Shown piece by piece: positions 19,718 through 28,110 of a stretch of DNA of 64,000 nucleotides. Within the stretch, counting starts at the first letter, position 1. Each line of letters starts with the position of its first letter. This DNA comes from Cloacibacterium normanense (GTDB lineage: Bacteria; Bacteroidota; Bacteroidia; Flavobacteriales; Weeksellaceae): assembly GCF_002943105.1 (NCBI RefSeq), contig NZ_PTPZ01000005.1, positions 62,001-126,000 on the forward strand, read 5' to 3'. A model generated the notes under the pieces. The model ran no database searches, was not told the origin of the DNA, and saw only the letters and a program-made list of their open reading frames with translations. The position numbers were made by a program, and so were the translations under genes.

Positions 19718-19747
19718 CACCACGAAAAACGTTCTTTTATACACGCA

Positions 19748-19855
19748 ACTTATTAAGAAAGGTGGAGGGAATTGACCCTGCGAAACCTTGGCAACCTGCT
19801 AACAGAAATGTGAGTAAGGTGCCAAATTCAACCCCGAAATTCGGGAAAGATAAGT
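19748..19855 (+). ncRNA. SAM-I (S-box) riboswitch
   Basis: The element has the S-box hallmarks: closing helix P1 (ACTTAT at 19748-19753, ATAAGT at 19850-19855), the strongly conserved GGTGGAGGGA followed by GACCCTGCGAAACC, the TTGGCAACCTGC core and, after a variable arm, AAGGTGCCAAATTC and GGGAAAGATAAG. It binds S-adenosylmethionine and would stop the downstream methionine genes when SAM is plentiful. A rho-independent terminator follows at 19891, as expected for attenuation. Confidence 0.93.
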
Positions 19856-19890
19856 CTGAAATCAGTTTAAAATAGTCATACACTATATCA

Positions 19891-25519: not shown

Positions 25520-27697
25520 TTAGTTTCCTGTTCTGTTTTTAATGTCTTTATTAGCACCTTCTATATTTCTGGCTTTTTGAGTTTTTTGGTTTCCAAAAGT
25601 ATAGGTTGCGGTAAGCGCAAGCATTCTTCTGTATTCATTTTTTCTTACGTTATTGTAATATCCATTGCTTTGTACATCTGTGATATTATATTTTGAACCC
25701 GTATTAAGGACATCATTCGCTTCGAATAAGAACGTCCAATTGTTCCAAATTTTTCTTACAGAAATATCCAGCGATTGAAGAGCGGAAAGTTTACCAATCG
25801 AGATTTGCTGAGGTGCTAGATAAAAATAATTTACACCCAAGAATAAGTCTTTTTTGCTCGAAAGTCTGATATTGTTATTCGCTTGAATGTGGAATAAATT
25901 CGTAGACTTGTTCAGATTAAACGCTGGGAAAGTTTCACCCGTAATTGGATCTGTATCTACACTTCCTTTGAACACATTATGACCAAAAGTTGTGGTGTAA
26001 TTGGCACTCCAAATTCCATTGTAGAAATTCTTTTGGAATCCTAAAGTTGCACTGAATTCTTGTTTTTCGCCAAAGTTAGTTCTTATGTATCTCAAAACGG
26101 TATTTCCATTTTCTACTTTTTGTAAAGGAATTTGGTCTGATGCATCTTTCACAAGACTAGTATTTAAAACCAAGAAATAAGTGTTTTTATACATATAGTT
26201 TAGTTCTTGATTGTAATACTGAGAAGCTTTCATAAAAGGATTATTCTGTACATAATTGGTCTGAGTAAGATAAATTCTAGAAGGATTAAGTTCCCAGAAA
26301 GAAGGTCTTCTTACACGACTAGAGAATGAATACGTTACATTATGATTCTTATTGATGGCGTAATTTACAGAGGCATAGGGCAAAAAGCTGTTGTAATCTC
26401 TAGTAAAATGTTCGTCTTTGTCTATTACGCTTCCTTCACTTTTCGTCAGTTCCAAACGAGTTCCCAATTTGGTAGAAATTTTATCATTGAAGCTTTTTTC
26501 TAGGGTAGCATATACTCCTACAATATTTTCATCGTAGATAAAATGGTTAGATTGGTTATCATCAATTCCTGTTGGTGGCAAAATATTTACAAATTGAGTG
26601 TCATTGTCAGTTTTGGTTTTGTTGTAACTTCCTCCCACAGAAAGCGTTAAATTCTTATTGAATTTCTGAATGTAATCTGCCATAAAACCAAGATTATCAA
26701 TTTGCTGAGGAATAGATTGGTTGAAATTAGCCAAAGTTACTCCATTAACATCACTGGTTTTGTTTACGTTCTCAGTCTTTTGATTGAAGTTAAGATACGC
26801 AGCATTCAAGGATAGTTTGCTTCCTAATGTATCTGTTTTTATTTCATAATTCAGGTTAAGAGAATGGTTTGCAGAATGGTCATTTTGGTTATTTGTGGTG
26901 ATGTTTTCTCTTGTAGAATTATTTGATAAATCGGTGATGATATTTCTAAAATAAGAAGAACCATCTTTGGTTTTATTCAGATTCAAGCTGTAAGAAATTC
27001 CTAAAATTTGTTTATCCGAAATTTCATAATCAGCATTAATATTTCCGCCAGCATAAGCATTAGGATTTATGGTGTTTCCAACGGATAAATTACTAGAAGT
27101 ATCTGTTCCGTTGCTCAAAATATAGGTGTTATATTCAGACCATTTTCCTACATAAGTATTGGTGCTTACAGTAAGTTTGTCTTTTTTATAATTGAGTGAA
27201 ACCGATGTGTTTGGATTGTTATAATAGCCTTGTTTGTTTTCCAACTTCCAAGTTCCGCTCATCCCATCGTATTTCTTCTTTTTCATCACGATATTGATGA
27301 TTCCTTGATTGCTTTCTACCTGAAATTCAGACGATGGAACGGTAATGACTTCTATTTTCTGAATGTTTTCAGATGGTGTATTTTTCAGCATTTCTAAAAC
27401 CGCTTCCGCGCTCATATTGCTTTTTCTACCATTAATGTAGATGATGGCGTCATTTTTTCCTAGAATTTTTAGATTGGCATTGTCACTTGTAGAAATAAGT
27501 GGAGTTTCTTTTAAAAGTTCAAAAGCATTGCTTCCTTTTGCAACTGGCGAATTGGCTACATCATAAACCATTCTATCAGATTTCTTGTGAAAAACCTTTT
27601 TGGTCATTTTCACTTCTTCTATGTCTTTTGTTTTTTCTTCTTGCGAATAAGAAAAAAGAGAAGTAAGAATTGCTGCTGTAAATAATAATTTTTTCAT
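25520..27697 (-). CDS. TonB-dependent outer-membrane receptor-like beta-barrel protein
   Basis: The 725-residue product has a signal peptide ending near SYSQ (residue 19). A short plug-like domain follows (residues 35-130, with SDRMVYDVANSPVAKGSNA, IIYINGRKSNMSAEAVLEML and IQKIEVITVPSSEF), then a large beta-barrel made of alternating aromatic strands to the end. It lacks the N-terminal carboxypeptidase-like domain found in many of its relatives. The layout fits the outer-membrane beta-barrel family 3 group of TonB-linked receptors. The ligand is unknown. A long leader with an attenuator-like structure precedes it. Confidence 0.85.
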   Translation of the reverse strand: MKKLLFTAAILTSLFSYSQEEKTKDIEEVKMTKKVFHKKSDRMVYDVANSPVAKGSNAFELLKETPLISTSDNANLKILGKNDAIIYINGRKSNMSAEAVLEMLKNTPSENIQKIEVITVPSSEFQVESNQGIINIVMKKKKYDGMSGTWKLENKQGYYNNPNTSVSLNYKKDKLTVSTNTYVGKWSEYNTYILSNGTDTSSNLSVGNTINPNAYAGGNINADYEISDKQILGISYSLNLNKTKDGSSYFRNIITDLSNNSTRENITTNNQNDHSANHSLNLNYEIKTDTLGSKLSLNAAYLNFNQKTENVNKTSDVNGVTLANFNQSIPQQIDNLGFMADYIQKFNKNLTLSVGGSYNKTKTDNDTQFVNILPPTGIDDNQSNHFIYDENIVGVYATLEKSFNDKISTKLGTRLELTKSEGSVIDKDEHFTRDYNSFLPYASVNYAINKNHNVTYSFSSRVRRPSFWELNPSRIYLTQTNYVQNNPFMKASQYYNQELNYMYKNTYFLVLNTSLVKDASDQIPLQKVENGNTVLRYIRTNFGEKQEFSATLGFQKNFYNGIWSANYTTTFGHNVFKGSVDTDPITGETFPAFNLNKSTNLFHIQANNNIRLSSKKDLFLGVNYFYLAPQQISIGKLSALQSLDISVRKIWNNWTFLFEANDVLNTGSKYNITDVQSNGYYNNVRKNEYRRMLALTATYTFGNQKTQKARNIEGANKDIKNRTGN

Positions 27698-27723
27698 GGT
27701 GTAATTTTTAAGTTTAAATTCTG

Positions 27724-27818
27724 TAAAAAAGAAAAGTCGCAGTGGGTTATTAGTTCAGTGATTTGGTGTGGTGATTAGTTTTTGTGGTTATTAATTTTTT
27801 CACTGCGACTTTTTTCAA
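27724..27818 (-). promoter_or_regulatory. Attenuator-like leader structure of the TonB-receptor gene
   Basis: On the minus strand, AAAAGTCGCAGTG (27813-27801) and CACTGCGACTTTT (27744-27732) are a perfect 13-bp inverted repeat 56 bases apart, followed by CTTTTTT, so the pair can form a terminator. A short reading frame fills the interval. An internal TCACTG (27763-27758) can pair with CAGTGA in the first arm as an alternative. This is the layout of a ribosome-mediated attenuator; function is inferred. Confidence 0.5.
27750..27803 (-). CDS. Possible leader peptide MKKLITTKTNHHTKSLN
   Basis: A GTG-started frame of 17 codons (or 22 codons from a TTG at 27816-27818) lies between the arms of the terminator-like structure and stops 5 bases before the second arm. 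It encodes four Thr and a tandem His-His, the type of content seen in amino-acid attenuators. It could also be chance, as there is no ATG and no Shine-Dalgarno sequence. Confidence 0.35.
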   Translation of the reverse strand: MKKLITTKTNHHTKSLN

Positions 27819-27921
27819 GTTTGGTTATTTGTTTTAGTTATTCGTTTTTAAATGGTTAAAAGTTTTTCTAAAAATTTGCTTCAAATCAGATGAAGTATGT
27901 TTTGTTCAATAATTTACATTG

Positions 27922-27953
27922 CAAAGATATATAATTAATTTAGTATTATGCAA
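27922..27953 (-). promoter_or_regulatory. Promoter of the TonB-receptor gene
   Basis: On the minus strand, TTG (27953-27951), a 21-base spacer and TATCTTTG (27929-27922) match the -33/-7 promoter with the same spacing as the met operon promoter. The predicted leader is about 215 bases long. Confidence 0.65.
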
Positions 27954-28077
27954 TACAAAGTAGTAAATAAAATTTATTACTTGATTTAACTTGTTGATTT
28001 TCAGTGATAAAAATTTAGCTAATGAATTGCTTTCAGAAGTAAGACAATCGAAATGGAAAGAGTATTACATCAAAAAA

Positions 28078-28110
28078 ACAAAAAAAAGTGAAAATTTCTT
28101 TCCACTTTTT
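28078..28110 (-). terminator. Terminator after the DUF3817 gene
   Basis: On the minus strand AAAAAGTGGAAA and TTTTCACTTTTT pair around GAAA, followed by a T-rich stretch. It lies about 25 bases after the stop codon. Confidence 0.65.

Follow-up and report, generated by a model that had tools for sequence, protein, structure and literature searches.

The ribosome-mediated attenuators of the his, thr and trp operons carry, in the 5′ leader ahead of the gene, a terminator-like hairpin followed by a U tract, and the leader described here is built in the same way. In the trp leader of Bacillus subtilis, which TRAP binds at 11 (G/U)AG repeats (PMC4027176), the likeness lies in the tandem short single-stranded RNA repeats beside the attenuator. 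Closer in relationship, structured 5′ leaders, some of them without an Rfam family, have been described in the related flavobacterium Flavobacterium psychrophilum, where a TonB-dependent transporter is under the control of a cobalamin riboswitch (PMC9723704). Within the phylum, the Bacteroides RRM-type RNA-binding protein RbpB prefers single-stranded regions (PMC11697453), and the mRNAs of Bacteroidetes are without Shine-Dalgarno sequences (PMC6847099).

We analyzed the leader of a receptor gene in a stretch of 64,000 nucleotides from Cloacibacterium normanense, hereafter called the window. RNA-level control is, to our knowledge, poorly charted in Bacteroidetes. Searched with Rfam 15 at gathering scores, the window contained only a SAM riboswitch (RF00162, 77 bits) at 19747-19856 on the plus strand; none was found at the leader, whose one match was at chance level (E 1.2, 20 bits versus a cut-off of 60). 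Further downstream of the SAM riboswitch, on the same strand, are genes that by eye are homoserine acetyltransferase-like (21430) and homoserine dehydrogenase-like (22411). A search of the literature for such a repeat-loop leader yielded none that we recognized from titles and abstract openings, which is not proof of absence.

Layout of the receptor leader

The leader region extends from 27698 to approximately 27920 on the minus strand, and the ATG of the receptor gene, at 27697, is located about 225 nt past the -7 box (Table 1). The encoded protein matches PF14905 (E 1.1e-66) and PF00593 (E 8.3e-15). The original prediction had described a promoter of the form TTG-N21-TATCTTTG, a perfect 13-bp inverted repeat followed by CTTTTTT, and a short frame with His-His and Thr codons. 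The letters of the promoter, which we take to be of the Bacteroidetes type, are present on the minus strand, as is the inverted repeat with its T run (27725-27813). The frame also exists as sequence: opened by GTG, it has 17 codons, VKKLITTKTNHHTKSLN, including HH and four Thr, and a longer version that starts with TTG (first base 27818) has 22 codons.

Table 1. Features of the receptor locus, with positions in the window.
Feature	Position	Strand	Remarks
PadR-type operator TTTGTATTGCATAATACTA	27941..27959	minus	overlaps the -33 TTG; PadR binding putative
Promoter TTG-N21-TATCTTTG	27922..27953	minus	TTG at 27951-27953, TATCTTTG at 27922-27929; from the sequence
Unit copy ACTTTTAACC	27854..27863	minus	2 mismatches; 5′ of the stem
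Unit copy ACGAATAACT	27836..27845	minus	2 mismatches; 5′ of the stem
Unit copy ACAAATAACC	27823..27832	minus	1 mismatch; directly ahead of the 5′ arm
Hairpin 5′ arm AAAAGTCGCAGTG	27801..27813	minus	fold and stem search; compensatory changes between genomes
Hairpin loop, 56 nt	27745..27800	minus	predicted unpaired in MFE folds
Loop unit ATTAATAACC	27786..27795	minus	1 mismatch; from the sequence
Loop unit ACTAATCACC	27770..27779	minus	1 mismatch; with the next bases forms the His-His codons
Loop unit ACTAATAACC	27745..27754	minus	exact; adjoins the 3′ arm
Hairpin 3′ arm CACTGCGACTTTT	27732..27744	minus	perfect 13-bp pairing with AAAAGTCGCAGTG
U tract CTTTTTT	27725..27731	minus	directly 3′ of the stem
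GTG frame, 17 codons, HH	27750..27803	minus	judged not to be a gene
Receptor gene, 725 aa	25520..27697	minus	outer-membrane beta-barrel / TonB-dependent receptor type

The minimum free energy (MFE) of the leader corresponds to a z value of -3.2, and none of 200 shuffles was as good. The best long-loop stem in the leader scored 32, a value that was not reached in any of 40 shuffles. At up to 2 mismatches, six copies of a 10-mer unit, ACUAAUAACC, are found in the leader. The U tract partly pairs with an A tract below the 5′ arm, and the MFE folds showed no other hairpin in which either arm is engaged. Because the loop is long and largely open and these folds contain no such rival, a switch, if there is any, should bind the single-stranded units.

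In 43 orthologous receptor leaders, T accounts for 71% of the 12 nt after the last G or C of the 3′ arm, versus 20% in the part of the leader used for comparison. A tail with ≥7 T in 10 nt is present in 31 leaders, while 12 fall short; L188 is without a U tract. With a stem and then a T-rich tail, the U tract, shortly before the start codon, the hairpin has the appearance of an intrinsic terminator. The loop is not the short one of such terminators: its median is 46 nt and its range 29-105 nt, which includes three rows (L254, L229 and L260) that the script mis-set in the 43-leader stem and tail table. Loops of this length are not usual in intrinsic terminators and could make this one weak. A terminator scan of 27600-28100 that allowed loops of 3-8 nt only reported none, in line with expectation for the 56-nt loop in the window.

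Conservation of the hairpin, the repeat units and the operator

Read across the aligned genomes, the conserved element comprises, in this order, a PadR-type operator and promoter, units, a hairpin whose two arms enclose some 45 nt of loop, a U tract and the AUG. There is usually at least one ACUAAUAACC before the 5′ arm, and the loop often holds three more copies. The receptor AUG usually follows within 40 nt, being 16-40 nt past the stem in nearly all rows and 112 nt past it in L255. In Kaistella (g26), a hairpin occupies the corresponding position, and its stem, unlike that of the window, is GAAGGAAG/CTTCCTTC; other stems are GCCGCAG/CTGCGGC in G004, GCCGCA/TGCGGC in g12 and GCAGGGAG/CTCCCTGT in G179. 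When seven unlike stems were compared, arms paired with their own partners at 7-8 of 8 positions and with swapped partners at a mean of 3.4 of 8. No shuffle matched the best stem in 23 of the 26 leaders scored; in the remaining three, it was reached by 1/40 (L176), 7/40 (L010, from G005) and 3/40 (L190) shuffles. The best single helix in the G005 leader has 8 bp, and the leader holds no unit at 2 mismatches. The leader L193 (G017, g12) is 281 nt long and has a tandem GTGAATG-type repeat and a 105-nt loop with extra sequence between the units.

Clear hairpins are present in seven genera (g1, g26, g12, g5, g7, g27 and g30). The structure is weaker in g2, where L260 was paired by eye with mismatches and L190 has no hairpin, and in g22, which has a 7-bp stem without a U tract. 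In 30 distinct rows, 9 of the 13 pairs change on both sides, giving 30 cells versus 6.1 expected, with 0 of 500 shuffles as high. The 18 cells in 6 pairs that were found in Kaistella alone (4.4 expected) and the 12 cells in 13 distinct Kaistella rows outside the training set of the model described below (versus 2.7) were likewise matched by 0 of 500 shuffles. The cross-genus pairing used arms from the best-stem search or a model-fitted alignment, both of which lean towards pairing, and the shuffles and the subset outside training serve as controls for this bias; MAFFT mis-registers the stems of the window's genus and of Kaistella by three columns. L190 was left out of the alignments and of the stem-swap comparison. 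Alignment A1 is without L176, a near copy of L161, and, by choice, without L010 and L193; alignment A2 consists of 15 Kaistella rows, and L220 was left out of the outside-training subset as a near copy. On the minus strand, there are 23 G-U pairs versus 7 A-C mismatches, an excess that points to the minus-strand RNA as the object. The conserved, covarying hairpin therefore supports the original prediction to the extent that a TonB-type receptor is preceded by an attenuator-like leader with a terminator-like fold.

The covariance model, R1, was trained on 15 hairpins, all from Kaistella, and contains no sequence from the genus of the window. On the training alignment itself covariation is weak, with one pair that changes on both sides (6 cells versus 2.5; 6/500 shuffles). 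Of 36 Kaistella genomes, 30 gave a single R1 match each, and all 30 matches lie ahead of the receptor start, the open frame having only 99 aa in L240; 16 of these matches fall on loci used for training or on a near copy. One of the six genomes without a match (G179, L184) has a divergent hairpin. In the genome of the window (G000), the best match was the window element (E 1.9e-4), and the best match was also the orthologous leader in G002 and G003 (E 0.002) and in G006 (E 0.03); the same search of same-genus genomes did not find the G004 and G005 leaders. Among 296 genomes of the family, 45 had a match at E ≤0.01. Beyond Kaistella and the window's genus, receptor-leader matches were obtained in g2, g5, g7 (two genomes), g27 and g30; these six genomes from five genera carry yet other stems, and a g12 leader also has a hairpin.

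R1 also matched seven further sites in the family that do not precede the receptor (E 4e-4 to 0.01). These matches (G012:C7, G120, G054, G192, G135, G194 and G152) were set aside by their surroundings; four of them resemble ordinary short-loop terminators by eye, and the one at G012:C7 is no weaker than some that were accepted. In 395 genomes of the order, R1 gave 16 matches with no convincing copy outside the family, where those in G404 and G515 look like chance by eye. The model gave lower-scoring matches on the opposite strand of many hairpins as well, as is usual for palindromes.

The 43 leaders contain 32 exact copies of ACTAATAACC, compared with 0.1 in shuffles, and 98 copies at ≤1 mismatch, compared with 1.3; at the latter threshold, two or more units are present in 29 leaders. 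In this set, L239 and L257 were missed by the operator pattern, and L254 is shortened because an in-frame ATG within the loop was taken as the start. In 40 leaders, leaving out L254, L260 and L229, we counted at ≤2 mismatches 90 loop copies, 43 copies 5′ of the stem and 8 copies 3′ of the stem. Units are found on both sides of the 5′ arm in 30 of these leaders, and 9 have none before it. The unit was rejected as a general genomic repeat, since ACTAATAACC occurs 12 times in G000 and its reversed control 23 times. Two copies within 32 nt were found in 5 of 36 Kaistella genomes, four times at the receptor leader and once at L205. At the latter locus (about 1500, G169 C1), two ACTAATAACC lie 13 nt apart in an intergenic region without the receptor hairpin, upstream of a gene that by eye is metalloregulator-like. 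In two g20 genomes (L264 in G135 and L265 in G194), a nearly identical intergenic stretch has two ACTAATAAC units and palindromes beside a tRNA-like sequence.

Operator-bearing receptor leaders at other loci (n=80, mostly Chryseobacterium) are short, with a median of 49 nt. They contain 5 copies at 1 mismatch (1.3 in shuffles, maximum 6) and 38 at 2 mismatches (13.5 in shuffles, maximum 23), and the latter excess suggests that the array may have been preceded in evolution by a weak unit-like stretch, present once near the start. Because these 80 leaders are short and none has two units, the element is dispensable in the wider family.

TTG and TATCTTTG are present in all six receptor leaders of the window's genus. 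The 19-mer TTTGTATTGCATAATACTA is located in relatives ahead of padR (PF03551), pspC (PF04024) and receptor genes, and exact copies occur in 94 of the 296 family genomes, with 0 for the reversed control in every genome among those listed. Because the operator is common to the padR, pspC and receptor genes, the receptor appears to be part of a PadR-type regulon, in which PadR would bind TTTGTATTGCATAATACTA. In the literature, as far as it was covered, we recognized nothing on this operator. Of 33 padR leaders, 21 carry one unit-like copy, versus 0.2 in shuffles, and thus padR and the receptor have both the operator and the RNA unit in common. The padR copy, a unit-like AATTAATAACC, lies some 8-12 nt ahead of the ATG (e.g. 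L145, L151 and L162). The G001 locus (L009) retains the operator, the promoter and about 95 nt from the 5′ end of the leader, joined to a fragment that is serine-hydrolase-like by eye, as might result from loss of the receptor through a rearrangement.

Alternative readings of the leader

The element might be passive, with a hairpin that protects the 5′ region of the mRNA or slows the polymerase and with units that are simply unstructured spacer. The variation in unit number and spacing (three loop copies in 22 of 40 leaders and 0-2 in 18) and the lack of units in G005 are consistent with this. However, a spacer would hardly account for the recurrence of a specific 10-mer, at 32 exact copies, or for its difference from what 5′ regions there generally contain: of 237 genes from two genomes, each preceded by a gap of ≥60 nt, only two carry any unit, and one of these is the receptor. 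We consider a passive element unlikely.

The units might instead be landing sites for the 30S subunit or ribosomal protein bS1, in which case the hairpin would tune translation rather than transcription. In F. johnsoniae, A-3, A-6, A-12 and A-13 are positive determinants of initiation (PMC6847099), and a unit joined to an AUG would place A at -3, -6, -12 and -13. The start region of the receptor does resemble the unit, with C at -2/-1 in 77%/81% of cases versus 17%/16% of other genes, and with a similarity of 7.86/13 versus 5.13; 10% of other genes score as high as the receptor. Yet general ribosome binding would predict units at other genes, and the same 2/237 control genes led us to reject the unit as a general ribosome-binding context. 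This reading also leaves the conserved U tract unexplained, and it seems rather improbable.

That the stretch from promoter to hairpin is mainly an sRNA acting in trans by way of the open loop units, which ends at the U tract and leaves the receptor to be transcribed by read-through, is in our estimate improbable as well. The stretch has its own promoter, a terminator-like end and an open conserved loop, and putative 5′-UTR-derived sRNAs have been reported in Bacteroides thetaiotaomicron (PMC7366714). Against it, every one of the 30 Kaistella matches lies in cis to one receptor, with the AUG 16-40 nt past the stem nearly always.

The original prediction raised ribosome-mediated attenuation through a His-His/Thr leader peptide that senses the charging of tRNA-His or tRNA-Thr, or else the relic of a moved his-operon leader. 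Strong clues to leader-peptide attenuation have been reported for amino-acid operons of F. psychrophilum (PMC9723704), and the window shares both the HH frame and the terminator-like hairpin with three near relatives. Aligning orthologous leaders, the check that had been proposed, upheld the stem and not the frame. Four of the 43 leaders, which belong to a single genus and have near-identical loops, contain the HH frame, and 29 of the 43 have no frame of at least 10 codons that closes within the leader; the peptide gene at 27750..27803 was therefore rejected. Among seven same-genus genomes, four keep the loop nearly unchanged together with the GTG frame, the G004 and G005 leaders are without it, and in G001 the operator stands ahead of another gene. 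The unit ACTAATAACC itself has TAA-TAA in one frame, and the HH codons arise because one unit copy is altered by one letter, ACTAATCACC for ACTAATAACC. The alternative pairing that was thought to block the terminator, between CAGTGA (27800-27805) and TCACTG (27756-27761), is present in the window and was discarded as a switch because it is not kept among same-genus leaders: TCACTG is intact in 2/6 and CAGTGA absent in 2/6. A mutually exclusive antiterminator was not found, and the loops are largely open in the MFE structures. By PF14905 and PF00593, the gene is that of an outer-membrane receptor rather than one for making or carrying the amino acid in question, uptake of an amino acid being formally conceivable. 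The relic fares no better, because the genome retains its own his leader, MKNLNLIHHHHHLI, with an ATG and five tandem His codons ahead of hisG. This his leader (L210 1320-1364, G000 C11) by eye has an inverted repeat and a T run. Peptide-based attenuation and a displaced his leader are thus very improbable.

A proposed attenuator and its relation to known systems

Our preferred reading is that the leader is a conserved cis-regulatory RNA of one PadR-controlled receptor in Weeksellaceae, which combines a terminator with a trans-acting binder of the units; we judge the chances of this whole reading to be even. The conserved element is observed directly, and from it we infer that the leader most likely attenuates transcription, its repeats being read by a factor that binds single-stranded RNA, and that this control is placed on top of that by PadR. 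In such a scheme, PadR would set the number of transcripts started. The stem and the U tract would act as an intrinsic terminator at which part of these transcripts stop short of the gene. The ACUAAUAACC units would be recognized by a factor, most likely a protein, that acts in trans and binds single-stranded RNA; if this factor is multivalent and spans several units, it would keep the 5′ arm from the 3′ arm so that the polymerase reads on. Such a binder would be expected to separate the arms because the units often flank the 5′ arm on both sides. The binder would thus set, in one direction or the other, the number of transcripts finished.

More tentatively, the leader may represent an undescribed class of attenuators, in which an array of ACUAAUAACC in and around an outsized terminator loop serves as a protein landing strip that decides receptor transcription, with a TRAP-like logic of independent origin in series with a PadR operator. 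This stronger version is possible, at somewhat less than even chances. If it is true, the repressor would itself answer to this binder, through the single unit found ahead of the padR start in many relatives.

The leader is compact, is present in a single copy in each Kaistella genome in which R1 matches, and is kept across seven to nine genera. Its readable repeat could be used as bait for the corresponding RNA-binding protein. The leader would tie PadR/PspC control to the output of an outer-membrane receptor, and it provides an example of a repeat that mimics a His-His leader peptide.

Compared with the his, thr and trp attenuators, there is here no conserved leader peptide, no set of regulatory codons and no conserved antiterminator pairing, and the gene is a receptor. 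The leaders that the main text on F. psychrophilum names, those of pheA, hisG, ftsY, acsA, alaS and rimP, differ from the one in the window (PMC9723704). RbpB offers a parallel as a single-strand RNA binder of the same phylum (PMC11697453), and the genome of the window encodes one RRM match (G000 C14:104600), a candidate binder. With TRAP, the leader has the tandem single-stranded repeats in common, and not the (G/U)AG repeats or an mtrB/TRAP gene: a search of the window genome (G000) with the TRAP family, PF02081, gave no match, and the B. subtilis control matched. Unlike the TRAP leader, the repeat here is a 10-mer, ACUAAUAACC, with longer and irregular spacing, and it lies mostly inside the terminator loop. 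We therefore regard the attenuator-type leader as known in kind, and its repeat-bearing loop as unusual.
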